A DNA stretch of 64,000 bases from an uncultured Erysipelotrichaceae bacterium (GTDB taxonomy: Bacteria; Bacillota_I; Bacilli_A; Erysipelotrichales; Erysipelotrichaceae). Of this stretch, positions 13,732-26,743 are shown in pieces. The notes beneath the pieces were generated by a model, which was given only the letters and a program-made list of their open reading frames with translations, had not been told where the DNA came from and did no database searches. The stretch's first letter is position 1. The number at the start of each line of letters is the position of its first letter. The stretch covers positions 62,001 through 126,000 of the forward strand of contig CAMCRE010000003.1 of the NCBI GenBank assembly GCA_945877255.1, in the 5' to 3' direction. The translations under genes and the position numbers were made by a program.

Positions 13732-14223
13732 ATGAGAATTGTTGAAGCATTAATTGAAATCCCGATGGGAAGTCAAAATAAATATGAAGTAAATAAAAAA
13801 ACTGGTAAAATTAAATTAGATCGTGTATTATACTCTGCAACGTTTTATCCAGCAGAATATGGTTATGTTGAAAATACGCTTGCATTAGATAATGACCCGA
13901 TTGATATTTTGGTATTCACATCATATCCAACTTTTCCAGGTTGTTATACCGATGCACGAATTATTGGTGGATTAGATATGATTGATAGTGGCGAAGTTGA
14001 TATTAAAATTATTGCCGTTTGTAATAACGACCCAAGATATGATCATGTTTCTTCACTTGATGACTTAGGTCCACACATTTTAAAAGAAGTGTCTCATTTC
14101 TTCTCAACATATAAATCATTACAAGGAAAATCTACACCTGTTTTAGGTTGGTTAGATTTAAAAACAACATTAAGAATGTTAGATGAATCAATTGAACGCT
14201 ATAATTTAAAACATAAAAAATAA
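13732..14223 (+). CDS. ppa: Soluble inorganic pyrophosphatase (family I)
   Basis: A 163-residue hydrolase of pyrophosphate to two phosphates. It shows the family I signature with the metal-binding aspartates (DNDPIDILVFT, the usual DGDPxDxLV), an early IEIPMGSQNKYE segment and VDIKIIAVCNNDPRYD. Gram-positive bacteria often use family II instead, so the family I form is worth noting. AGAGGT precedes the ATG. Confidence 0.95.
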   Translation: MRIVEALIEIPMGSQNKYEVNKKTGKIKLDRVLYSATFYPAEYGYVENTLALDNDPIDILVFTSYPTFPGCYTDARIIGGLDMIDSGEVDIKIIAVCNNDPRYDHVSSLDDLGPHILKEVSHFFSTYKSLQGKSTPVLGWLDLKTTLRMLDESIERYNLKHKK

Positions 14224-14250
14224 AATACATGTCAAAATGGCATGTATTTT
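14222..14250. terminator. Bidirectional terminator between ppa and the yhfW-like gene
   Basis: A 10-bp stem AAAATACATG (14222-14231) pairs with CATGTATTTT (14241-14250), extendable by a G-U and a C-G pair. A and T runs flank it on both sides of this convergent junction. Confidence 0.88.
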
Positions 14251-15460
14251 ACTTTATAATCTTATTTAAAAATGATGTTCCACACTGTATCGTCGTACCG
14301 AAATATTCTGCTACTGTTGCACCAACATCGGCTAATGTTTCAAGTGTACCAATGTTTGTTACACCGGATATATTAGGTTTATAAACTAATATTGGAACAT
14401 ACTCACGTGTATGGCGGCGATGCCCAATAGTTGGGTCATTACCATGATCCGCCATCACAATTAATATATCATCCGTTTTAATTTTTTCTTGCAATTTCGC
14501 AAGTCTTTCATCAACGATATTTAGTTTTTCAATGTATCGCTCAGCATTTTCATCGTGTCCTGCTAAATCTGTTTCTTGTACATTCAAGAAGAAAAATCCT
14601 TCATCACAACTATCTAAATCATTAATTAATTTAGTCATCGTGTCATATGTATCGACACATGGAAAATTAATTCCTTTTGGATTATCCACAATATTTTCTA
14701 CTTTTCCATAAAAATAATTATTAATGTTTTTTTCTGCTAATTTAATTGGAACTTGCTTTGAAGCATCCACACCGTATCCGATATGAATAACGTTGTAATT
14801 TTTACGATACACACCACTTCCTGGTGCATCCACTCCAATAAATTCATCTTTTGTGAAGATGTTATTTGTGATGTCTTCAATTGTAACATTTGAACCTCCA
14901 AACGCAATAACACGTGGAACTTTCACATGGTTACGAACGATAAATCCAATTTTTTTTATTAAATCAAAACCACAATCGTCTAATGCACCCACAACGTTAA
15001 TTGCTTGTCCTAAATCTGTTTCCATATTATCACCAATACAAATGACATTATTCACTTTCAACAATTGAAGATTATTTTTAGTAATACGCTCTACTATAAA
15101 ACCTTGCTGTAATAAATCTGCTTCTATTGTGTCAATATGATTAGATAACTTTGTGAATTCTGGTTTTTTCACATCAGTACCCGCAATTTCTTGATGTCCA
15201 AAATAAGAATCTGCACCGAAATGTTTTAATTTACTTTTACCAAAAATGCAATTTTTAGAAAATTTAAACTGATCTTTTTCAATACCTAACGCATTTATTA
15301 ATCCTAATTGAATTAAGTTATCCCATTTTTTTTCTGATGGATAATTAATTAATGATAAACACGTATTGCTGCCAATATCAGCAGGTCGTACAATTGGTAC
15401 ATCTTCCATTGCACCAATCCCAAAAGAATCAATCACAACAACGATAAACCTTTTATTCAT
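14249..15460 (-). CDS. Phosphopentomutase-like metalloenzyme (YhfW type)
   Basis: A 403-residue member of the alkaline-phosphatase/phosphopentomutase superfamily: VVIDSFGIGAM at the start, GSNTCLSL with the probable phosphorylated Thr, TDLAGHDENAE, and MADHGNDPTIGHRRHTRE with the metal-binding Asp and His residues. In ordinary phosphopentomutase (DeoB) the context is nucleoside salvage. Here it is the last gene of a cluster that matches E. coli yhf, where the homologous position is YhfW. The substrate is unknown. It overlaps the yhfX-like gene by eight bases. Confidence 0.85.
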   Translation of the reverse strand: MNKRFIVVVIDSFGIGAMEDVPIVRPADIGSNTCLSLINYPSEKKWDNLIQLGLINALGIEKDQFKFSKNCIFGKSKLKHFGADSYFGHQEIAGTDVKKPEFTKLSNHIDTIEADLLQQGFIVERITKNNLQLLKVNNVICIGDNMETDLGQAINVVGALDDCGFDLIKKIGFIVRNHVKVPRVIAFGGSNVTIEDITNNIFTKDEFIGVDAPGSGVYRKNYNVIHIGYGVDASKQVPIKLAEKNINNYFYGKVENIVDNPKGINFPCVDTYDTMTKLINDLDSCDEGFFFLNVQETDLAGHDENAERYIEKLNIVDERLAKLQEKIKTDDILIVMADHGNDPTIGHRRHTREYVPILVYKPNISGVTNIGTLETLADVGATVAEYFGTTIQCGTSFLNKIIK

Positions 15461-16574
15461 ATAATTCTCCTAGACAAGTGTATTCACCCACTATTTCATC
15501 ATTTTCAAGTAATACAACTCTACTACGACACACAAAAAATTGAAAACGGAAAGACATCACAACCGTACTAGAGATCGGATGTAATCCATTTACTTTGAAA
15601 TAATAATCAATCGCCGCATCATTTGGTGGTGTAATATTTATTAGGGTGTGATTAATTAAAGCATGTTTAATATTTGAGCGACGATAATGTCCCCCACCAT
15701 ACACATAAGATTCACCATTATAATGATGCGAAACTTCACTAATATATATAACTGCTGGGGTTTCTTCACGTTCCAATACATGTGCAGGTGTTGTACCAGT
15801 CAATGCATGCCCTGGTTCTAAAACGACGTTTTCTAAATCGATTAAATCAATCACTTCACAACTACTTGCCGAAGGTAAATTAATTATCTCGATATTTAAC
15901 CCGAACTGTTTCATGATTGTAATTGCAGAAATAACAGTATGATAATTATTCGTGTTCACGATTTTTTCTTGGTTATTATCGTATAGAAAACAAGGGAAAG
16001 CTGTTGCACCCACAATTTTAATATTTGGCAACGTTTGTACATCAACAATAAAGTTTTCCAATACATCTAAATGTATTCCACTTTCTTGTCCGCTATATAG
16101 TATGTCATGATTATGTACAACTTTCACAATAATTTTTTGAACGATTCCTAATTCATGTGCAATTGTTTGAATTTCACGCAATTTTTCAAATGAATAAACC
16201 GTTATCACTTCACATCCGTATGCCATAATTTTTTTCAATAGCTGTTTAGGAATTTGCACAAGATGACCGACATTACCTAGTGGAATGTGATGTTTCATCA
16301 TTAATAACGCTTCATTAAAATCAACACAAACTGCCCCACTATATCCTATTTGGACTAATTTTTGTGCTAAATATGGATTTCTACCAACTTGTTTCAACAT
16401 AAAAAATAAACGAATATTTTTTTTTGATGCTTTTTCATAAATTTTGGTAGCATTCGCCACAAAACTATTCACATCAACAACGTATGAATCTGGTAAAATT
16501 TTACCATTTTGATGTAAATTAATGCACTTCTCCACAAAATATGGCTGACTTTTTAAAATTTTCTCTAAAAACAA
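15453..16574 (-). CDS. PLP-dependent alanine-racemase-fold protein (YhfX type)
   Basis: A 373-residue fold-type III PLP protein. The pyridoxal lysine is most likely in FFMLKQVGRNP near residue 62; later segments such as PGHALTGTTPAHV and YVYGGGHYRRSN match the YhfX subgroup. It may act as a racemase or in another amino acid conversion; the reaction is not established for this subgroup. It overlaps the aminotransferase-like gene by ten bases, which indicates coupled translation. Confidence 0.85.
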   Translation of the reverse strand: MFLEKILKSQPYFVEKCINLHQNGKILPDSYVVDVNSFVANATKIYEKASKKNIRLFFMLKQVGRNPYLAQKLVQIGYSGAVCVDFNEALLMMKHHIPLGNVGHLVQIPKQLLKKIMAYGCEVITVYSFEKLREIQTIAHELGIVQKIIVKVVHNHDILYSGQESGIHLDVLENFIVDVQTLPNIKIVGATAFPCFLYDNNQEKIVNTNNYHTVISAITIMKQFGLNIEIINLPSASSCEVIDLIDLENVVLEPGHALTGTTPAHVLEREETPAVIYISEVSHHYNGESYVYGGGHYRRSNIKHALINHTLINITPPNDAAIDYYFKVNGLHPISSTVVMSFRFQFFVCRSRVVLLENDEIVGEYTCLGELYE

Positions 16575-17665
16575 TTTTCCACCTTCTTCACTGCTTCTTC
16601 TAAAATACGAACTATCGTTTGTGTCCCACTACGCATCGGATTAATACGAATCCAATAATCTAAAGCATTACTATCATTTTTTAGCATCGTGCCACTTACT
16701 TTATAAAATAACGGCATAAATTCGTATTTACTTTCTGAACCAACTGGATGTGGTAATGCACCTAATTTTTCAGCTTCAATTAATACTTGTTTCGTAATTG
16801 GTTGCTTAAATTTCACTAATATTACTTTAGATTGTGCATTAACGATATGTGCTTCTTCAATAAAATCATATTTTCCATTGTTTAAAATCTGCACAATTTT
16901 TTCAGTTTCTTCTGCTTGAATCGCTAACGCAACTGGTGCATATATTAACCCTTTTAACACATCTAGTGCTTCATGACCTTGTACTTGACTTCCACCCGAA
17001 TAATGATATAGACGTATTTTATCAATAAAATTTTTATTACCCACAATACAACCTATGCCTTCTGGTCCTAATAATTTAAAACATGAAAAACATGATAAAT
17101 CAGCACCACATTGTGTTCCTATTTTAGCAACCTTTAAAACGGCATAATTATCATCACAAATAACATTGACGCCATATTTTTTAAATACAGCAATAACTTC
17201 ACTAATATCATAGCTATCTTCTAGAACTTGTCTTGTATATTGTACTAATGCAATTTTAACATCCGCATTTTCTTGTATAAATTTTTCTAATTGTGTTATA
17301 TCATTAAAATTTACAGCTAATGGCATGCAATTCAACTGTTGCAATGTAGTTTGCGTTGTAGAATAAATTGGTGCAGTATGTACGAATATTTTACGATTAT
17401 CATTTATTGTAGAAAAAATCGCTTCTTTTATTGCGTTCGTTCCTGAACCACGCACAAAAACTGCATCTTCCGCGTTAAAAAACGTTGCAATTACTTGTTC
17501 TATTTTTCGCGTTGTTTGTGGGATATTGCCGTTTTTATGTACACCAAAATCACCATAATTTAATATTTCATATCCGGTGAAGTATTGCGCTATCGTATCA
17601 ATTAATTTAAATTGTAGTTGTTTAGCTTCTTCAACCGAAATACTTTTTAAAGGATAAACTTTCAT
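16565..17665 (-). CDS. PLP-dependent aminotransferase/lyase-like protein (YhfS type)
   Basis: A 366-residue fold-type I PLP enzyme. The likely Schiff-base lysine lies in SCFKLLGPEGIG near residue 193, the glycine-rich phosphate site in VRGSGTNAIKEA, and the cofactor Asp in VICDDNYAV. It corresponds to E. coli YhfS. The cluster holds two PLP enzymes of different fold, which suggests stepwise chemistry on one amino compound; this is inference. Its ATG overlaps the php stop by four bases. Confidence 0.85.
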   Translation of the reverse strand: MKVYPLKSISVEEAKQLQFKLIDTIAQYFTGYEILNYGDFGVHKNGNIPQTTRKIEQVIATFFNAEDAVFVRGSGTNAIKEAIFSTINDNRKIFVHTAPIYSTTQTTLQQLNCMPLAVNFNDITQLEKFIQENADVKIALVQYTRQVLEDSYDISEVIAVFKKYGVNVICDDNYAVLKVAKIGTQCGADLSCFSCFKLLGPEGIGCIVGNKNFIDKIRLYHYSGGSQVQGHEALDVLKGLIYAPVALAIQAEETEKIVQILNNGKYDFIEEAHIVNAQSKVILVKFKQPITKQVLIEAEKLGALPHPVGSESKYEFMPLFYKVSGTMLKNDSNALDYWIRINPMRSGTQTIVRILEEAVKKVENCF

Positions 17666-18543
17666 TTCAATACTCCAAAAATACGTTGTGGATTTTCCAC
17701 CAACATTTTATTAATTGATTCATCTGTTACACCATATTGTTTGCACATGGGAATAAATACTTCAAATAAATAATTGTATCCAATACCGCCTCGATATTTA
17801 AAATTAGATTTACGTGTAATATCTAATGATAAACATACTGAATCTAATAAGTTTTTATCTTGCAATGTTTTTAACCATTGTGCTTTAATTTCATCTGGAA
17901 AATAATTATTTTTACCAATTGTGTCAAATGCAACATTAAATCCTAATTTAATCAATGTGATAATTTGATCTAAATCTTGGCATAAATCTTGATGACCGAT
18001 AATAACACGTTTAGGGTTTACTTTATTTTCAATAAAATATTTTGCTTGTTCTAATGCATACGTTCCTAATGTCGTATGTGTTGAAATAACTGCATTTGTT
18101 TGATGATGTGCAATTACAGCAGCATCAAACACTTTTTTCTCCATTGGTGTCATTTCATTAAGACTCGTTCCTATTTCACCAATCACACCCGCATTTTGAA
18201 ATTTCCCTTCCATTCCACTTGTGAGTTCACTAATCATTAATTCTGCTAATTCATCCACTGTTTTTGTGTAAACGTATTCTGGTAAAAATGGTTCTTTATA
18301 AAAACCCGTTGCTTGAATAATATTAATATTCGTTAATTCAGATACTTTATTAACGTATTCTACATCACGTCGCATTCCTATAGCTGTAACATCAATAATA
18401 TTTCTAACACCACTCGCATATAATTCTTGATATTCTTTTACTGTTTCATCAAAGCAATCTAAAAAACAGTCTGGTTCATTTTTTATTTTTGATAAATCAA
18501 TTGTTGTATGCTCATGAATAAGCGTTATACCTTCTTTCAACAT
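17662..18543 (-). CDS. php: Phosphotriesterase-homology protein (Php/YhfV type)
   Basis: A 293-residue amidohydrolase-superfamily protein. Metal ligands are visible as HEH (H10, H12), a glutamate in VIGEIGTS in the bridging position, THTT, GHQD and the catalytic Asp of LSLDITRKS. This matches Php rather than true phosphotriesterase, whose bridge is a carbamylated Lys. It probably hydrolyses a lactone, ester or amide; the substrate is unknown. It sits one base from the amidase-like gene. Confidence 0.88.
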   Translation of the reverse strand: MLKEGITLIHEHTTIDLSKIKNEPDCFLDCFDETVKEYQELYASGVRNIIDVTAIGMRRDVEYVNKVSELTNINIIQATGFYKEPFLPEYVYTKTVDELAELMISELTSGMEGKFQNAGVIGEIGTSLNEMTPMEKKVFDAAVIAHHQTNAVISTHTTLGTYALEQAKYFIENKVNPKRVIIGHQDLCQDLDQIITLIKLGFNVAFDTIGKNNYFPDEIKAQWLKTLQDKNLLDSVCLSLDITRKSNFKYRGGIGYNYLFEVFIPMCKQYGVTDESINKMLVENPQRIFGVLK

Positions 18544-18544
18544 A

Positions 18545-19522
18545 CTAATAACCTCCTTTAATACTGAAATAGTTGGTTTCTATTTTACTTCTATTAAATT
18601 TTATTTGATTTGCGATATTTAACATTGCTAGTACATGTTTTTCATCACTTTTGCACACTAATAAATAACCACTTGATAAGTTTTCACTTGGCACAACAAT
18701 CGCAGATAAACCTAACATATTCACAACCGTTAAATAATATTTATGACCTTGCATTTGACGTAATTTAGTCGTTACATCATAATGTCCCATAATTGAATCA
18801 CCATATGCGTAGTAATCAATTGGTCCTTCTTCACAGCATAAAATATTATTTTCAAAGTCGAATGATTTTAAATCTTGCATTAAACTTTCTCTACTGCTAT
18901 TGTCGTAATTTAATTCAATGCGTTTACTGGGTATATTTAAGTTTACTATTTTACTGTAAGGATTTTTAGCGTAACATAATTGTAAAGGTTTTACATCATT
19001 TAGTTTTAATAAATTATGCACAATACAATTAATGTGTTCGATATCTTTTGCAATAAATCCAATGCTCGCAACAAACGCAATACCATCAGTTGAAACTTTT
19101 TGATGTTTTTGGATATTTTTACTAAAGAAAAGTGGTGAAATCATACCATATAAATTTAAAGAAAGAGCCGGTGCAAGCACCGACCCCCCTCCATCAGTAG
19201 CGATCGCTACATCATTTATTTCTAAAAATACATTAATCGCACTACCACTTGATGAACCTGTCATCTGATTAGCGGTAATCGGATTTTTCAATTGTAGATC
19301 GATTGCTCTTCCTCCAGTTGATTTATCTAACGTATGTGTTAAATATCCCATTTTTTCTAGTGTATTAAGCATCTCAAAATCAATAACCGCAGTGTCTTTA
19401 ACACCTAAGTATCCACCTTTTTCTAATTGTGAGAAACGTTCTAAAATATCATAAACTTTAATGACTGAATCTGCTTTTAGTGCCCGAAAGGATTTTCTCG
19501 CATAATCTACAATACGTTGCAT
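18545..19522 (-). CDS. Compact amidase-signature-like protein in the yhf-type operon
   Basis: At 325 residues it is much shorter than the usual 450-500 of the family but keeps the whole Ser-cisSer-Lys set: Lys in GVKDTAV (K42), cis-Ser in TGSSSGSA (S90) and the nucleophile in TDGGGSVLAPA (S114), 24 residues on as in known amidases. It likely cleaves an amide. I know of no such gene in the enterobacterial yhf cluster, so it is an addition here. It shares its boundary base with the yhfT-like gene. Confidence 0.7.
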   Translation of the reverse strand: MQRIVDYARKSFRALKADSVIKVYDILERFSQLEKGGYLGVKDTAVIDFEMLNTLEKMGYLTHTLDKSTGGRAIDLQLKNPITANQMTGSSSGSAINVFLEINDVAIATDGGGSVLAPALSLNLYGMISPLFFSKNIQKHQKVSTDGIAFVASIGFIAKDIEHINCIVHNLLKLNDVKPLQLCYAKNPYSKIVNLNIPSKRIELNYDNSSRESLMQDLKSFDFENNILCCEEGPIDYYAYGDSIMGHYDVTTKLRQMQGHKYYLTVVNMLGLSAIVVPSENLSSGYLLVCKSDEKHVLAMLNIANQIKFNRSKIETNYFSIKGGY

Positions 19523-20814
19523 TATTTAGCAACTACTGGTAATGCGTATAAGCCAACCCAGATTAAAATATTTAATAAGATTCCTAACGAAATAACTGCA
19601 ACTGGTCCTACTGCTAAATCTACTAATGGTTTTTTAGCGTGTTTATTTAATTGATATACCCCAATTACAAATAATGCACCTAATCCTGCAACCATTGCAT
19701 TACCAGCTACAATTGAACCTGCTAAAATAGCTACTTCTAAAACTTTACTCATTGATGTACGAATATGTTCACCCATATCTCTTACACCTGGGAATTTATC
19801 CATTGTTTTCGCAAATGTGTTAATTAAGAATACTTCAGCAACCATTACTAATGCTCCAACCACAAATGCAAGGAATGGATTTCTTAACATAATCCCTACC
19901 ACAAATACAAGTGTTGTTCCTACTGGTGAATACACACCTGTAACTATCGCAGTTGTAAAGATTAACGGAATAAATCCAATTGCTCTTGCTGCAGCAGTAA
20001 TTGTTGCGTTATCAAATTTACCTTCTTTTAAGAACGCTAGTGAAGCTGGATCACCAGCTACTACAGTTAATGCTGTTCCAGCAGCTACTAAACCACCCAT
20101 AATTGCTAAAATAATGAAGTTGCTTTGAATACGTTTTACTTTTTCAGCAAAAACACTAGTTAATTGTGTGTTTGCGTTATTAGATTCTTTACTAGTTGCG
20201 GCATATACAACCATTAATATTGTCCCTATCAACATTGCAATTCCGTCAGCGTTTAACGTTACTTTTCCTGTTCCAAACGTAAATACACCAAATTTTTTAA
20301 CTAAAAACCAAGCAACTACTGTTACTAAACCTGTAATTACACCTTTTTTAAATCCTTGTTGCATTGCTACAGCTACAGCTGGGAAAATCGCAAATGAAAC
20401 AACTACAAAACTTGATACACTTCCTAAATTACCTAAGAAGTTGAATGGTAATGTTTTGAATACGTTTACTACTGCACTTAATCCTACTAAAATTAGTAAT
20501 CCATATACTGCTCCAGCAACAGCTGCTAATATGTTTCCAATTAAATCATCATTAAATATTGTTCCGATAATATCAGTTGCAAGTAAAATGGAATGAATTA
20601 AGATAATTGGTGCACCTATTGATACCGGAATACCAAATCCTACTACTAATCCAAAACTAATCGCAAAACTCATAGCTGCTAATTCTTTACGTGAAATTTT
20701 ATTTTCAAAAAATTGTGGCATTACTGGTCTAAATCCATCATTAAATACCGCAATACCTTTATTTGCAAGTAGTGCCGCTAAAGCACCAAGTGCCATAATT
20801 ACGATGTATTTCAT
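19522..20814 (-). CDS. Multi-pass membrane transporter, YhfT type
   Basis: The 430 residues make about 11-12 hydrophobic helices, starting with MKYIVIMALGALAALLANKG. Length and Gly/Ala-rich helices (VGFGIPVSIGAPIILIHS, TGVYSPVGTTLVF) match YhfT. It probably imports the substrate of the operon, since it lies directly before the enzymes and after the small YhfU-like protein. The transported compound is unknown. AGGAG precedes the start. Confidence 0.82.
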   Translation of the reverse strand: MKYIVIMALGALAALLANKGIAVFNDGFRPVMPQFFENKISRKELAAMSFAISFGLVVGFGIPVSIGAPIILIHSILLATDIIGTIFNDDLIGNILAAVAGAVYGLLILVGLSAVVNVFKTLPFNFLGNLGSVSSFVVVSFAIFPAVAVAMQQGFKKGVITGLVTVVAWFLVKKFGVFTFGTGKVTLNADGIAMLIGTILMVVYAATSKESNNANTQLTSVFAEKVKRIQSNFIILAIMGGLVAAGTALTVVAGDPASLAFLKEGKFDNATITAAARAIGFIPLIFTTAIVTGVYSPVGTTLVFVVGIMLRNPFLAFVVGALVMVAEVFLINTFAKTMDKFPGVRDMGEHIRTSMSKVLEVAILAGSIVAGNAMVAGLGALFVIGVYQLNKHAKKPLVDLAVGPVAVISLGILLNILIWVGLYALPVVAK

Positions 20815-20826
20815 ATTTTTCTCCTT

Positions 20827-21189
20827 CTATTTTTCTAAAATCGCTTTTACTAATACTGGTAATACTTGATCGATATGCTGAGCAGTAAATCCAAATGCTA
20901 TTTTGCCTTTTTTGACTTCTTCTTGAATAAACGCATCGTCTTTAATCATTCCAGGCATTGAAATTGTTGCACAGTTATCGGCACCAAGTAACGCAATAGC
21001 CATTGCTAAGGCACCGCCACCACCTGTATTACATGCACCAATGTAATAGTCGTATTGTTTTTGTTGCATTGCCATTGCTGCTTCTAAATCATTTTTAATT
21101 GTTAGTTCAAATTTTCCTGCACCTAATTGTTCTAATTTATTATAAATTTGCTGTTTATCAATTTGACCACCAATCACAATTTTAATCAT
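20827..21189 (-). CDS. Small YhfU-type (DUF2620) protein
   Basis: A 120-residue alpha/beta protein. The glycine-rich segment YYIGACNTGGGGALAMAIALLG near residues 50-70 and IKDDAFIQEEVKKGKIAFGF are typical of DUF2620. The neighbours suggest it serves the YhfT-like transporter, perhaps as a soluble subunit comparable to a PTS IIB protein; this is inference. It overlaps the PRD gene by eight bases. Confidence 0.82.
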   Translation of the reverse strand: MIKIVIGGQIDKQQIYNKLEQLGAGKFELTIKNDLEAAMAMQQKQYDYYIGACNTGGGGALAMAIALLGADNCATISMPGMIKDDAFIQEEVKKGKIAFGFTAQHIDQVLPVLVKAILEK

Positions 21190-21541
21190 TTTGTACTCCT
21201 TTCTCCACGATATTAGCTAAATGCATCCATAAGAAATGCACTTCATCTTGGGGTAATGGTGTAGATATCGTTTTTAGTGTATTTTCTGTTAAAACGACAA
21301 TTTTATCAAACGTTGCTAAGTTTTTGATTTCATCAATAATGTAATCTTCTACTTTAGCAACCGTTTCATTTTTTTTCACGCGTTGAAGTGCCATTGCTAA
21401 ATGTGTCAAAAATACCACGCTATCTGCACTGCTATATCCGTTATTTAAAATAATTTCTTGATGAACTTTTAATGTATCGTGATATGTTTGGGTATCAATC
21501 ACATTGTTATCTAGCAATATTTTAAATCTTGTTTCTATCAT
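21182..21541 (-). CDS. PRD-domain regulatory protein (YhfY type)
   Basis: The 119 residues form a single PTS regulation domain with the histidine-containing segments LTHLAMALQR (near 46) and EVHFLWMHLANI (near 100). It has no DNA-binding domain. Such domains are phosphorylated by HPr or EII proteins, so it may link this operon to sugar status. It is the first gene, behind the promoter at 21563-21591, with AGAGGTGG upstream of the ATG. Confidence 0.82.
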   Translation of the reverse strand: MIETRFKILLDNNVIDTQTYHDTLKVHQEIILNNGYSSADSVVFLTHLAMALQRVKKNETVAKVEDYIIDEIKNLATFDKIVVLTENTLKTISTPLPQDEVHFLWMHLANIVEKGVQND

Positions 21542-21562: not shown

Positions 21563-21591
21563 ATTATTACACATTATTTCTATATTGTCAA
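21563..21591 (-). promoter_or_regulatory. Promoter of the yhf-type operon
   Basis: On the minus strand TTGACA (21591-21586), 17 bases, AATAAT (21568-21563). The -35 box is a perfect consensus. No cre site or other operator is obvious in the 58-bp gap. Confidence 0.75.
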
Positions 21592-21599
21592 TACTTTTA

Positions 21600-23360
21600 T
21601 TAGTTTTTTGGCAATTCTGGAATATTTAAGTGTGTTCTAATTGAATTTGATATCTCTTTAACCATTGGTCCAATATTCCAATATAAATAAGTTAATGCTC
21701 CTGATGTTCTAAATCCTGACTGCATTTTATTCGTCAACACAATTGTTTGTAGTTGATTCACTGGGTCTGCTATTACATATGTTCCCGTAAATCCATCGTG
21801 CCCAAACACTTGTTCGGTAGCAGAATCTCCCATCCATGATTGATCTAATTTGAAACCAAAACCAAACTCATTAGAAATTCCAGCATTCGTTTGTTTAGTG
21901 GTAAATAAATCAATCGTTTTTGCATCATATAATTTAACGTTTTGATATGTTCCTTTATTTAGCATTAATTGTGTCAATATCGCCAGATCTTCAGCTGTTG
22001 AGAATAACCCTGCATGACCTGAAACACCTTTTGTTGCCATACCTGCATTACCGTCATTCACTAATCCTGTTAATAATCCTGTACGCCATCCTTTAAATGT
22101 TTTAAATTTTTCAGCATGTATTGTTGTATCATAACCAATTTTTGGATATTTTTCTTCATCTACCATTTTATATTCATATGGATTTCCAAATGATGTTGAA
22201 GCGATATTTGATTTTCCAAACGCTAATGGTGTATACATTGTATTATTCATACCTAATGGTTTGTATATATTGTTTAATACGTATGTTTCTAGTGGTATTT
22301 TAGTAACTGCTTCAATGATATACCCTAATGTCATAAATCCTAAATCAGAATAATACGGTTTTTGATTATTAATTGCACCTTCTAAAAATTTCGGATTTAA
22401 ACTTACATTTTTAATAAATTCTAATTGTTGTTGTTTTGTATCGCCGTATAAGAACGTTGGTTCCCATTGTGGTAAACCTGATGTGTGTGTTAGTAATGAT
22501 TTAACAGTAACGTTTTCTTTACCGTTTTTCTCAAATCCCGGTAAATAACGATGTACTGGTGCATTTAAGTCTACTTTTCCTTCCGAAACTAACTTCATAA
22601 TTGATTGTGTTGTTGCCATTACTTTAGTTACTGAAGCTAAGTCGAATAACGTGTCTGTAGTTGTAGCTTCTTTATTTTCTAATGCTACATATACCGGATT
22701 TTCATATTCACTATTTGCATCTTTTGTGAATGCTTTTTTATATCCATATGCTTTATGGGCAATAATTTTACCTTCTTTAGCCACTAGTACGACTCCACTA
22801 GGTATTTTATTAGCTGCAATCCATTCATTCATTGTTTTATCAATTTTTTCTGTTAATGCTACATCAATTTCAACCGGCATTTTTGATGGCGTATTATTTT
22901 TTACTTTTGGTTTTACTGGTATCTTTTTACTATTGACCACTTTTTTATTTTGCGTTGTTTTTTTAGTTGGTGTAGTAACTGCAATAGTTTGTTTAACTTC
23001 CGTGTTTTGTGTTTCTGTATTTTGTGATAATGCTGTTTCTAATATTTCCTTAAATTCTTTTTCTAAAGTTGTTAATTTGTCATTTTCAATTTTACTCAAA
23101 TCTAATTTAATGTAATCATTTAATGCTTGATACTTTTCATCATATTTTGCTTTTAATGTTGCATCTTTAATTTCAATTGATTTTAACAATAATTGCTTAA
23201 TTTCTTCAATCTTTGATTTTAAAGCTGAATTATCCTCCTTTTTCACTTCTGTTACAACTTGTGGTTTTTCTTCAGTTTTTTGTGCTGGTTGACATGCCAT
23301 TAAACTGGTCGCTAAACCAATACTTATACTTGTTAGTATAATTTTTTTTGCCTTTTTCAT
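21600..23360 (-). CDS. Lipoprotein with beta-lactamase/AmiE-type serine hydrolase domain
   Basis: A 586-residue protein. A lipoprotein signal ends at the lipobox LMAC (C23). Residues about 40-110 are charged and probably coiled-coil, then comes a Lys/Thr/Pro-rich linker. From about 165 the serine beta-lactamase fold has SVTK as SxxK, YSD as YxN equivalent, GVSGHAGLFS and HDG as the third motif. This resembles B. subtilis AmiE and PBP4*-type proteins that act on muropeptides outside the cell. The ATG at 23360 is chosen for its AAAGGAG site. Confidence 0.87.
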   Translation of the reverse strand: MKKAKKIILTSISIGLATSLMACQPAQKTEEKPQVVTEVKKEDNSALKSKIEEIKQLLLKSIEIKDATLKAKYDEKYQALNDYIKLDLSKIENDKLTTLEKEFKEILETALSQNTETQNTEVKQTIAVTTPTKKTTQNKKVVNSKKIPVKPKVKNNTPSKMPVEIDVALTEKIDKTMNEWIAANKIPSGVVLVAKEGKIIAHKAYGYKKAFTKDANSEYENPVYVALENKEATTTDTLFDLASVTKVMATTQSIMKLVSEGKVDLNAPVHRYLPGFEKNGKENVTVKSLLTHTSGLPQWEPTFLYGDTKQQQLEFIKNVSLNPKFLEGAINNQKPYYSDLGFMTLGYIIEAVTKIPLETYVLNNIYKPLGMNNTMYTPLAFGKSNIASTSFGNPYEYKMVDEEKYPKIGYDTTIHAEKFKTFKGWRTGLLTGLVNDGNAGMATKGVSGHAGLFSTAEDLAILTQLMLNKGTYQNVKLYDAKTIDLFTTKQTNAGISNEFGFGFKLDQSWMGDSATEQVFGHDGFTGTYVIADPVNQLQTIVLTNKMQSGFRTSGALTYLYWNIGPMVKEISNSIRTHLNIPELPKN

Positions 23361-23497
23361 GATTTCTCCTTTCTTACGCAACAAAATTATAACATAACTT
23401 TTTTAGTTTGTAAATACTTTTTTTGATTTTTTTGTAATTTTATGAAAAAACGCCATAACATTAAACAAAATGTGTAAAAAAAAATAATATTATTGTA

Positions 23498-24328: not shown

Positions 24329-25039
24329 TTAATATCGTTCTAAAATATCCAATAATTTTTTCTTATAAATAATAAATTCATTAGATGTTATAAACGCATT
24401 GATAGTATTTGATTTTTTTACATCTAAACAATACACAACTTCACCCGGCTGTTTTCCTAAAACATATATTTTATTACATAAAATTAATGCTTCTTCAATA
24501 TCATGTGTTATTAATAATGTAGTCAAGTTAAATTCATTGTGCATTTTTAAATAAAAAGCATGCATCTCTTTTCTTGTAATTGCGTCTAATGCTGAAAAAG
24601 ATTCATCTAACAACATTATTTTCTTATTCATCATTATCGTTCGTAAAAAAGCCACTCTTTGACGCATTCCACCAGAAAGCTGTGCAGGATATAGCTGTGC
24701 AATGTTTTCTAAATTAATTAATTTTAGAAGTTTTTTTGCTTCTAAATATGCTGTTTTTTTAGAAACACGATCAATAATTAAAGGCAAAGCAATATTATCA
24801 ATAACTTTTTTATGTTCCAGCAACAAATCTTTTTGCAACATATAACAAAGTGATGCGTTCATTTCAATAGTACCAACTTGTTTTTTTAATATACCTGCTA
24901 TCAAATTAAATAGCGTTGTTTTTCCAACACCACTCCCACCAATAACACCAACGATTTCATTTTCATTAATTGTTATATTAATGTTTTGCAGTACAGTTTT
25001 ATTGCTATAAGCATAACACAAATTTTTAATTTTCAACAT
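24329..25039 (-). CDS. thiZ: ABC transporter ATP-binding protein, ThiZ/SsuB-like
   Basis: A 236-residue ATPase. Walker A GGSGVGKTT, the Q loop, the signature LSGGMRQRVAFLRT, Walker B IMLLDES and the switch His in LLITHDIEEA are all present. It energises the HMP/thiamine-precursor uptake system with the permease and lipoprotein encoded just upstream. The start at 25039 (MLKIKNL) fits the family; an ATG seven codons earlier is possible, and neither has a clear ribosome binding site, so coupling to the preceding gene is likely. Confidence 0.87.
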   Translation of the reverse strand: MLKIKNLCYAYSNKTVLQNINITINENEIVGVIGGSGVGKTTLFNLIAGILKKQVGTIEMNASLCYMLQKDLLLEHKKVIDNIALPLIIDRVSKKTAYLEAKKLLKLINLENIAQLYPAQLSGGMRQRVAFLRTIMMNKKIMLLDESFSALDAITRKEMHAFYLKMHNEFNLTTLLITHDIEEALILCNKIYVLGKQPGEVVYCLDVKKSNTINAFITSNEFIIYKKKLLDILERY

Positions 25040-25985
25040 AAGCGTTTGTATAACCTTCATTTTTCATAAATGGTGTTTCGACTAATTTATTTTCATACGC
25101 CCACTCAAAAAAACGATTCCAACGCTCACTATCAATCATTCCCCATTTATTAATGTCAGACGCATAATTTTTTGCAAGCCAGCGTTGTGATTTGACTACA
25201 AAATCACGTTGTAATTCTGGAACATGTTTCACTAAAATATCGCTCGCTTCATCTGGATATTGCATTGCATATTGATAGCCTTTTTTTATTGCCGACATAA
25301 TGTTTTTAGCTTCTGTATGCTTGTTTTTTAAATACGCATTATTCGCAATGATTACAGGTGAATAATAATTTAATTCATTCGCAAAATCTTTCAAAAAAAA
25401 GAAATTCATCGGTAAATTTTGATGATCTGACATTATTTTATCCCATCCATAATAAACCCAACCAACATCAAATTGGTTATTAACTAAACCCACAATCGTA
25501 TTATCCGCATTGTTTGGAATAAGTTTCAGCGTATCAAAACTAACGTTTTCTTTTTCCATAATTGTTTTTACCATGGCAAGCTCTATTGGATCATTCCATG
25601 TACCATATCGTTTATTAGCTAAATGTTTTGGTGTGATAACATTTAACGATTGATTCGATATCATGCCACTTGTATTATTCTCAATAATAGCAGCAACTAC
25701 TGTAATTGGAACTTTTTTCTCAAACTGTTTTAAAAGTGTATCTTGAAAACTAATACCAAAAAAAGCTTTATTATTAGCGATTAACTCTACTGCACTACCT
25801 TCCGGTGGTTGTACAATATTCAAATCAATACCAATAGATTTAAAATAACCTTTTTCTTTTGCAACATATAAACCAGTATGATTAGTATTAGGAACCCAAT
25901 CTAACACAAAATCAACTTTTTTTAAACTAGTTGGTGTTTTTGCACAACTAACCAACAACAATATCAACACTAACAATTTTTTCAT
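25026..25985 (-). CDS. thiY: Thiamine-precursor-binding lipoprotein, ThiY/NMT1 type
   Basis: A 319-residue extracellular binding protein with a short lipoprotein signal (LLLVSC, C14). DWVPNTNHTGLYVAKEKGYF at residues about 29-48 is the NMT1/THI5 hallmark, and GWVYYGWDKI and NELNYYSPVIIAN follow. Such proteins bind formylaminopyrimidine or hydroxymethylpyrimidine. The TPP riboswitch upstream supports the assignment. It overlaps the permease by four bases. Confidence 0.9.
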   Translation of the reverse strand: MKKLLVLILLLVSCAKTPTSLKKVDFVLDWVPNTNHTGLYVAKEKGYFKSIGIDLNIVQPPEGSAVELIANNKAFFGISFQDTLLKQFEKKVPITVVAAIIENNTSGMISNQSLNVITPKHLANKRYGTWNDPIELAMVKTIMEKENVSFDTLKLIPNNADNTIVGLVNNQFDVGWVYYGWDKIMSDHQNLPMNFFFLKDFANELNYYSPVIIANNAYLKNKHTEAKNIMSAIKKGYQYAMQYPDEASDILVKHVPELQRDFVVKSQRWLAKNYASDINKWGMIDSERWNRFFEWAYENKLVETPFMKNEGYTNAYVEN

Positions 25986-26743
25986 TTTTTATCCTCCCAT
26001 GGTATACACTTTTTAAAAATAATATCCAAAATTTTAATAAGCAATAAATTAATAATACTCACAAATACGATTACCGCAAATAATTTATCGTATGCAAACG
26101 CCTTTCTAACGCGCATCATATATACACCTAAACCATGAAATCCACCTAACCACTCTGCTACTAACGCACTCACAATAGCATATGAAACACTTAATTTTAA
26201 ACCAGAATAAAAATAATGAATAGCTTGTGGTATTTTAAGATGCCAAATTACTTGTAATTTGCGAGCTTGCATCAAATTAAATAATTGGACCATATCTTTA
26301 TCAACAGAATCAAATCCTTCTAAAATACTTACAACTACAGGGAATAATGATGTCAGTGCAACTAGCACAATTTTCGGTTCAATATCATAACCAAGCCAGA
26401 GTACTAAAAGCGGTGCCACCGCAACAATTGGTATCGTTTGAAAAACAACCGCGTACGAAACGATTATTTTCTTTAGTAGTGGTGAAACTTCTGAAATAAT
26501 CGCTAATATAATAGCTAAAACAACCCCCACTAATAATCCTAAAAACGCCTCTAATAACGTTATACCACTATGTGAAATAATTAAATGAAAATCACTGATA
26601 AATGCAACAATAATTTCTAATGGTGTCGGTAAAATGAATTTTGGTAATAAATTAAAATAACCACATAGTTGCCATATACTGATTATTATAAAAAACGATA
26701 CCAAAACAATATTTTGTTTAACGATGTTTATTAACTTTTTCAT
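25982..26743 (-). CDS. thiX: ABC transporter permease, ThiX-like
   Basis: A 253-residue BPD-type permease with about six helices and the EAA-type loop (FNLMQARKLQVIWHLKIPQAIHYFYSGLKLS near 165-195) that contacts the ATPase. It belongs with ThiY and ThiZ in pyrimidine uptake. The gene overlaps the thiamin-binding protein gene by 26 bases. Confidence 0.9.
   Translation of the reverse strand: MKKLINIVKQNIVLVSFFIIISIWQLCGYFNLLPKFILPTPLEIIVAFISDFHLIISHSGITLLEAFLGLLVGVVLAIILAIISEVSPLLKKIIVSYAVVFQTIPIVAVAPLLVLWLGYDIEPKIVLVALTSLFPVVVSILEGFDSVDKDMVQLFNLMQARKLQVIWHLKIPQAIHYFYSGLKLSVSYAIVSALVAEWLGGFHGLGVYMMRVRKAFAYDKLFAVIVFVSIINLLLIKILDIIFKKCIPWEDKK

Follow-up and report, generated by a model that had tools for sequence, protein, structure and literature searches.

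The 64,000-nucleotide window analysed here, from an uncultured Erysipelotrichaceae bacterium (contig CAMCRE010000003.1), carries a yhf operon, a gene set that is known, widely annotated and uncharacterised, and to which the window adds a member. A first-pass annotation had described eight coupled genes at 14249-21541, seven of them with E. coli counterparts, as a Gram-positive version of this operon with an unsettled pathway. All eight open reading frames lie on the minus strand with junctions of -10 to +12 bp (Table 1), and the correspondence to E. coli holds for seven of the eight. Profile searches against Pfam and NCBIfam bore out the family assignments; yhfT, yhfU (DUF2620), YhfS-like_C, YhfX-like_C and PRD each score above the Pfam gathering cut-off. 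Literature searches by gene name turned up no function for yhf, the hits being genome lists or unrelated genes that happen to share a name, so the pathway is indeed unsettled. The description as Gram-positive understated the case, for Bacillota provide the majority of the yhf loci found, with E. coli a single remote branch. What is new here is the evidence drawn from neighbouring genes and from structural comparison.

Table 1. Genes and signals at the yhf locus of the window, the operon first (PLP, pyridoxal phosphate).
Feature	Position	Strand	Evidence and remarks
yhfY, single PRD protein, 119 aa	21182-21541	-	Pfam PRD 7.5e-07
yhfU, DUF2620	20827-21189	-	Pfam 3.3e-44
yhfT, polytopic membrane protein, presumed transporter	19522-20814	-	Pfam YhfT 1.2e-154
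Amidase-signature enzyme, optional operon member	18545-19522	-	Pfam Amidase 1.6e-08
php, phosphotriesterase (PTE)-family metallohydrolase	17662-18543	-	Pfam PTE 1e-75
yhfS, fold-type I PLP enzyme	16565-17665	-	Pfam YhfS-like_C 9.7e-39
yhfX, fold-type III PLP enzyme, TTG start	15453-16574	-	Pfam Ala_racemase_N + YhfX-like_C 4e-27
yhfW, DeoB/iPGM-superfamily phosphomutase	14249-15460	-	Pfam Metalloenzyme 2.1e-39; PRK12383 495 bits
PBP4B/AmiE-family serine hydrolase lipoprotein	21600-23384	-	PRK03642 3.4e-69; 58 bp upstream of yhfY
Promoter-like site TTGACA-17-TG-AATAAT, directly before yhfY	21563-21591	-	Consensus scan 11/12; consensus match only
Terminator-like inverted repeat, 14 pairs, where yhfW and the pyrophosphatase gene converge	14221-14251		Sequence scan
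Inorganic pyrophosphatase gene, converging on yhfW	13732-14251		Shares the 14-pair terminator-like repeat

The operon is widespread and its architecture is strongly kept. A scan of GTDB contigs yielded 220 YhfT relatives, from which 80 loci were retained, and whole-genome searches added further loci from Bacillota, Spirochaetota and Actinomycetota; a plasmid search contributed a complete PGAP-annotated yhf set in Cetobacterium (Fusobacteriota). Across the approximately 100 syntenic loci recovered from these four phyla the order YhfZ-Y-U-T-(amidase)-Php-S-X-W recurs, and chance assembly of the set is excluded because both gene set and order recur on this scale. The amidase is the optional member: 71 of 103 loci have it on the operon strand, its presence changes 12 times on the tree, and it is absent in Lactobacillus, E. 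coli (L106) and other loci. Among E. coli genomes, 5,032 of 5,426 (about 93%) have the operon at a query coverage of at least 80%, which means that an operon whose substrate is unassigned is present in the great majority of complete genomes of this species as well as in many Firmicutes. The K-12 operon, yhfZYXW-php-yhfUTS, has the seven orthologous families in common with the window, including the PLP pair, Php, YhfW, YhfU and YhfT, and differs in gene order and in having no amidase, whereas the window has an amidase and a PBP4B neighbour and no yhfZ; the two YhfT proteins are only 36% identical. The closest relative of the YhfT in the window, at 71% identity, comes from an Erysipelotrichaceae metagenome-assembled genome. 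The source genome of the window measures 1.26 Mb, is 98.45% complete, and still keeps the whole set of yhf enzymes; yhfZ, which encodes an accessory regulator and not an enzyme, was found neither in the neighbourhood nor in a search of the whole genome, and has been lost from it. One further locus (L143) has a highly divergent YhfT, 26% identical to that of the window, with no other yhf gene recognised nearby.

The most informative evidence on function comes from the genes that adjoin the operon. A ranking, over 104 loci, of the families encoded no more than two genes away from the operon on its own strand placed NagB (glucosamine-6-phosphate deaminase; 11 loci) ahead of PBP4B/AmiE-type hydrolases (10) and ABC ATPases (10), the last being an expected background superfamily. 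In all 11 loci nagB lies directly behind yhfW, with its start -20 to +16 bp (often -4 to +16 bp) from the yhfW stop in L080, L091, L096, L097, L098, L132, L146 and L147, and at a distance of 59-105 bp in L029, L035 and L043. The NLDEY motif is present in every one of the encoded proteins, and the GHxxFNEP motif is missing from a single one. Grouping of the operon NagBs as one clade was rejected (approximately unbiased test, p 9.7e-06), with 5 changes on the NagB tree, and the presence of nagB required 6 changes on the YhfT tree. It follows that nagB has been recruited behind yhfW more than once, in repeated and independent events. Most genomes with an operon nagB also encode a second NagB elsewhere, which argues that the operon copy is dedicated. 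This recruitment makes glucosamine-6-phosphate the likely end product of the pathway, which narrows the options for an orphan operon.

All parts of the operon look functional, and the catalytic residues of its enzymes are complete. In the amidase the triad Lys42-Ser91-Ser114 is intact and kept in 57-58 of 58 homologues. The Php metal ligands H10, H12, E123, H156, H184 and D241 are kept in all 95 homologues; its closest PDB sequence matches are E. coli Php (1bf6/4lef), and by score it is a Php-like member of the PTE family and not a PRK09875 equivalog (304 vs 486 bits). Php Arg244, presumed to bind phosphate, aligns with the arginine of the LDAGR segment in 3msr and in the lactonase 3ovg. YhfS and YhfX match their E. 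coli counterparts best among PDB entries (4j8l, E 4e-110, and 4kbx, E 6e-93, respectively). In YhfS Lys197, Asp171 and Arg340 are invariant in 97 of 97 homologues, as is Lys61 in YhfX, where Met1-Phe2 is also conserved. That both PLP enzymes are present implies that the alpha-amino group is free at one step at least.

YhfW scores above the cut-off of NCBIfam PRK12383 (495 vs 254 bits), which names it a phosphopentomutase, and scores below both DeoB equivalog cut-offs (TIGR01696, 130 vs 341 bits; PRK05362, 153 vs 256 bits). In an alignment of 91 homologues the metal ligands D11, D298, H302, D338, H339 and H350 are invariant or nearly so, and the nucleophile position 85 is Ser or Thr in every sequence. 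DeoB structures are its best PDB sequence matches, with an alignment limited to the catalytic core. Comparison with E. coli DeoB shows a common core fold, metal ligands, nucleophile position and GK lysine, whereas the cap stretch is replaced and the phosphate-binding arginines of the DeoB cap domain, presumably the residues that bind the pentose 5-phosphate, are absent. Because these arginines are missing, the phosphopentomutase label is doubtful and, judged by the alignment, should not serve as a substrate assignment. The same data bear on an alternative in which ribose-5-phosphate is formed from an amino-acid conjugate derived from ribose or a nucleoside, with YhfW as a true phosphopentomutase. 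Such a route would agree with the name given by PRK12383, with the core catalytic residues and GK lysine common to YhfW and DeoB, and with pseudouridine, transketolase or transaldolase genes at single loci; given the unconserved cap arginines, scores under the two DeoB cut-offs and a recurrent neighbour that is NagB and not a pentose enzyme, we consider it distinctly unlikely.

The second recurrent neighbour suggests where the substrate may originate. The PBP4B/AmiE-type gene, for which the window is one of the 10 loci, shows 8 state changes on the tree and occupies different sites, including the yhfZ/yhfY gap in L015/L039, the yhfU/yhfT gap in L070 and a position behind NagB in L029, L035 and L043. 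The protein of the window shares 34% identity with E. coli YfeW (1e-64) and contains the motifs SVTK (SxxK), YSD (YxD) and HxG, and its score lies under the PRK03642 equivalog cut-off (234 vs 385 bits). We take AmiE to be a member of the same PBP4B-like hydrolase family. In E. coli yfeW stands behind murQ-murP, in an N-acetylmuramic acid (MurNAc) operon. The B. subtilis MurNAc operon, murQRP-amiE-nagZ, likewise includes amiE, and the AmiE amidase acts on extracellular muropeptides (PMC5061867). These operons resemble the yhf loci in placing an exported hydrolase of this family beside a sugar uptake system and differ in that the yhf operon has neither MurQ nor MurP. One may envisage salvage of peptidoglycan fragments, in which D-amino-acid peptides, freed by the PBP4B/AmiE-like enzyme, would be trimmed by the amidase and Php before YhfX and YhfS racemise and deaminate their D-residues, the sugar genes being mere bystanders. 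The 10 adjoining loci with the 8 state changes, the occurrence of the family in MurNAc operons and the intact amidase triad would fit, but no peptide permease or peptidase accompanies the genes, no MurQ-like etherase was recognised in the operons examined, and YhfW and NagB would have no role, which together render this decidedly improbable.

Of the genes taken to serve uptake, the first encodes a single-PRD protein. The PRD of YhfY keeps His47, Arg54 and Glu100 in 83 of 83 homologues. The AlphaFold2 (AF2) model of YhfU (predicted local distance difference test, pLDDT, 97) has a five-strand alpha/beta fold for which Foldseek ranks RpiB isomerases highest (prob 1.00, TMq 0.62-0.67, E 2e-03 or weaker), and a CxTGxG loop with its invariant Cys53 stands at the position of the RpiB catalytic CGTGxG. 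From this model YhfU appears to be an RpiB-fold protein with an invariant cysteine; kinship to RpiB from sequence by itself is weak, with E 0.0088 over 60 columns for the profile match to E. coli RpiB and E 0.09-0.8 for PDB profile hits. A role as IIB protein was ruled out, the cysteine following strand 3 of the RpiB-like fold, a placement that differs from what we take to be the IIB topology. YhfT likewise gave a confident AF2 model (pLDDT 91.7). Fold comparison ruled it out as a classical EIIC, Pfam and NCBIfam offer no fitting alternative family, and a fusion of DUF4310 and DUF4311 was dismissed for want of profile similarity, a faint EF_0832 signal being seen in the E. coli control. As modelled, YhfT looks like a transporter fold with no solved relative. 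A link to the phosphotransferase system (PTS), which the first-pass annotation had proposed, gains support from HPr genes inside the operon in 4 loci of three lineages (L091, L096, L131 and L141) and from the invariant PRD His47. The HPr-like gene follows NagB in L091 and L096 and yhfW in L131, while in the spirochaete locus L141 EI-like, HPr and IIA-like genes precede yhfY and yhfW is followed by UlaB/UlaA-like and transketolase genes, a full PTS set flanking the operon. As a sign of HPr phosphotransfer to operon proteins this is circumstantial.

A second family of clusters, of the EF_0829/AHA_3910 type, invites comparison. Its members are a PRD protein, a Gly_rich_SFCGS protein, DUF4310-4312, an amidohydrolase, DgaE and DgaF. 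Profiles of YhfY and YhfU match the PRD protein (E 8e-08) and the Gly_rich_SFCGS protein (E 1e-07) of this cluster, and both systems pair a PRD and a small Cys/Gly-rich protein (E about 1e-07) with membrane proteins, an amidohydrolase and a fold-I PLP enzyme. They differ in that YhfT has no detectable similarity to DUF4310/4311, the yhf operon has no aldolase, and only yhf has YhfX, YhfW and Php. In L160-L169 the EF_0829-type cluster has the look of a further transport class, as uncharacterised as yhf; a 2-keto-3-deoxygluconate (KDG) kinase accompanies some copies, and the enzymes are missing from others. DgaE and DgaF are needed for growth on D-glucosaminate (PMC7396535, PMC4987338), and the Salmonella dga/gfr operons resemble yhf in that an amino sugar acid or a conjugate of sugar and amino acid is used under PTS/PRD control, with a mannose-family PTS permease there and YhfT here (PMC4987338). 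By analogy, the compound imported by the yhf system might itself be an alpha-amino acid of sugar type, with Php opening a lactone or amide, YhfX epimerising C2 and YhfS removing ammonia, and with no formation of glucosamine-6-phosphate. Homology of YhfY and YhfU to proteins of the DgaE/DgaF cluster and a distant alignment of YhfS to DgaE (E 2e-07) point in this direction, and a sugar-type amino acid would account for both PLP enzymes; nonetheless the operon has no KDG or KDG phosphate (KDG(P)) aldolase or oxidoreductase, and YhfW and the repeated recruitment of NagB are left unexplained, such that we regard this reading as unlikely.

The reading that we favour, tentatively and at somewhat less than an even chance, is that the yhf operon is a PTS-linked catabolic module that converts an amino-acid-bearing amino sugar to glucosamine-6-phosphate. 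Here we infer the substrate, the order of the steps, phosphorylation on entry and the reaction of YhfW. The exported PBP4B/AmiE-type hydrolase (in the window, the gene directly upstream of yhfY) would release the compound extracellularly, and this would be an amino sugar joined to a primary-amine amino acid. YhfT and YhfU, controlled by the single-PRD protein YhfY, would import it in connection with HPr, and the optional amidase and Php may strip amide, acyl or lactone groups. YhfX would then epimerise the amino-acid part and YhfS eliminate or deaminate the same part by PLP chemistry, after which YhfW would transfer phosphate, yielding glucosamine-6-phosphate, and NagB would convert this to fructose-6-phosphate and ammonia. 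In broad terms the scheme of the first-pass annotation, hydrolysis and epimerisation of an amino compound, fits the enzymes, and its more specific guesses, transamination and acyl-amino acids, stay conjectural; the neighbourhood comparison that it proposed upheld the gene set and brought out the hydrolase gene upstream, the absence of yhfZ and the NagB link, all of which the annotation had missed. Repeated capture of nagB, of a PBP4B-family exo-enzyme and of HPr offers for the first time a definite end product and a source that can be tested, and the neighbour evidence together with the structural comparison renders the orphan operon directly testable, including in E. coli.

Several observations weigh against a route to glucosamine-6-phosphate. 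No kinase gene is present in the operon, and 93 of the 104 loci have no adjacent NagB, whose link could be limited to some lineages or which could serve elsewhere. The YhfT model found no PDB match by fold (best prob 0.15), EIIC-like folds included, and phosphorylation on entry is unsupported by the YhfT and YhfU models. Other neighbours point to pentose or hexose-phosphate routes: PsuG-like (pseudouridine-5-phosphate glycosidase) and sugar kinase genes lie 20 and 10 bp behind yhfW in L093, transketolase and transaldolase genes stand beside the operon in L. rhamnosus (PMC7513527), and zwf/gnd-like genes occur at L012 and a transketolase gene at L141. In the lineage of L012, which also includes L045, L061 and L145, genes resembling those for 6-phosphogluconolactonase, 6-phosphogluconate dehydrogenase and glucose-6-phosphate dehydrogenase precede yhfZ.

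A broader proposal, which we hold to be rather unlikely, unites the two uptake systems. YhfY-YhfU-YhfT and the PRD/SFCGS/DUF4310-4312 cluster would form an unrecognised PTS-coupled transporter class, with a membrane fold unseen in solved structures and an RpiB-like Cys protein acting as relay or coupled isomerase. The route that it serves, itself undescribed, would lead from an amino sugar linked to an amino acid to glucosamine-6-phosphate.

Around the operon, the window holds a second strong sigma-70-like site at 23386-23414, before the PBP4B-like gene, with an extended -10 (TG) as in the site before yhfY at 21563-21591. Judging from these consensus matches, the PBP4B-like gene and the yhf operon may be separate transcription units. 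The true start of the PBP4B-like gene is likely the ATG 8 codons in, at about 23360. Elsewhere, a family of small zinc-ribbon-like membrane proteins (c47) found in L018-L020 shows no link to the operon. Further along the window, 24329-26743 encodes an ABC ATPase, a lipoprotein substrate-binding protein and a permease, which by eye only resemble an uptake set for the thiamine precursor hydroxymethylpyrimidine (HMP).

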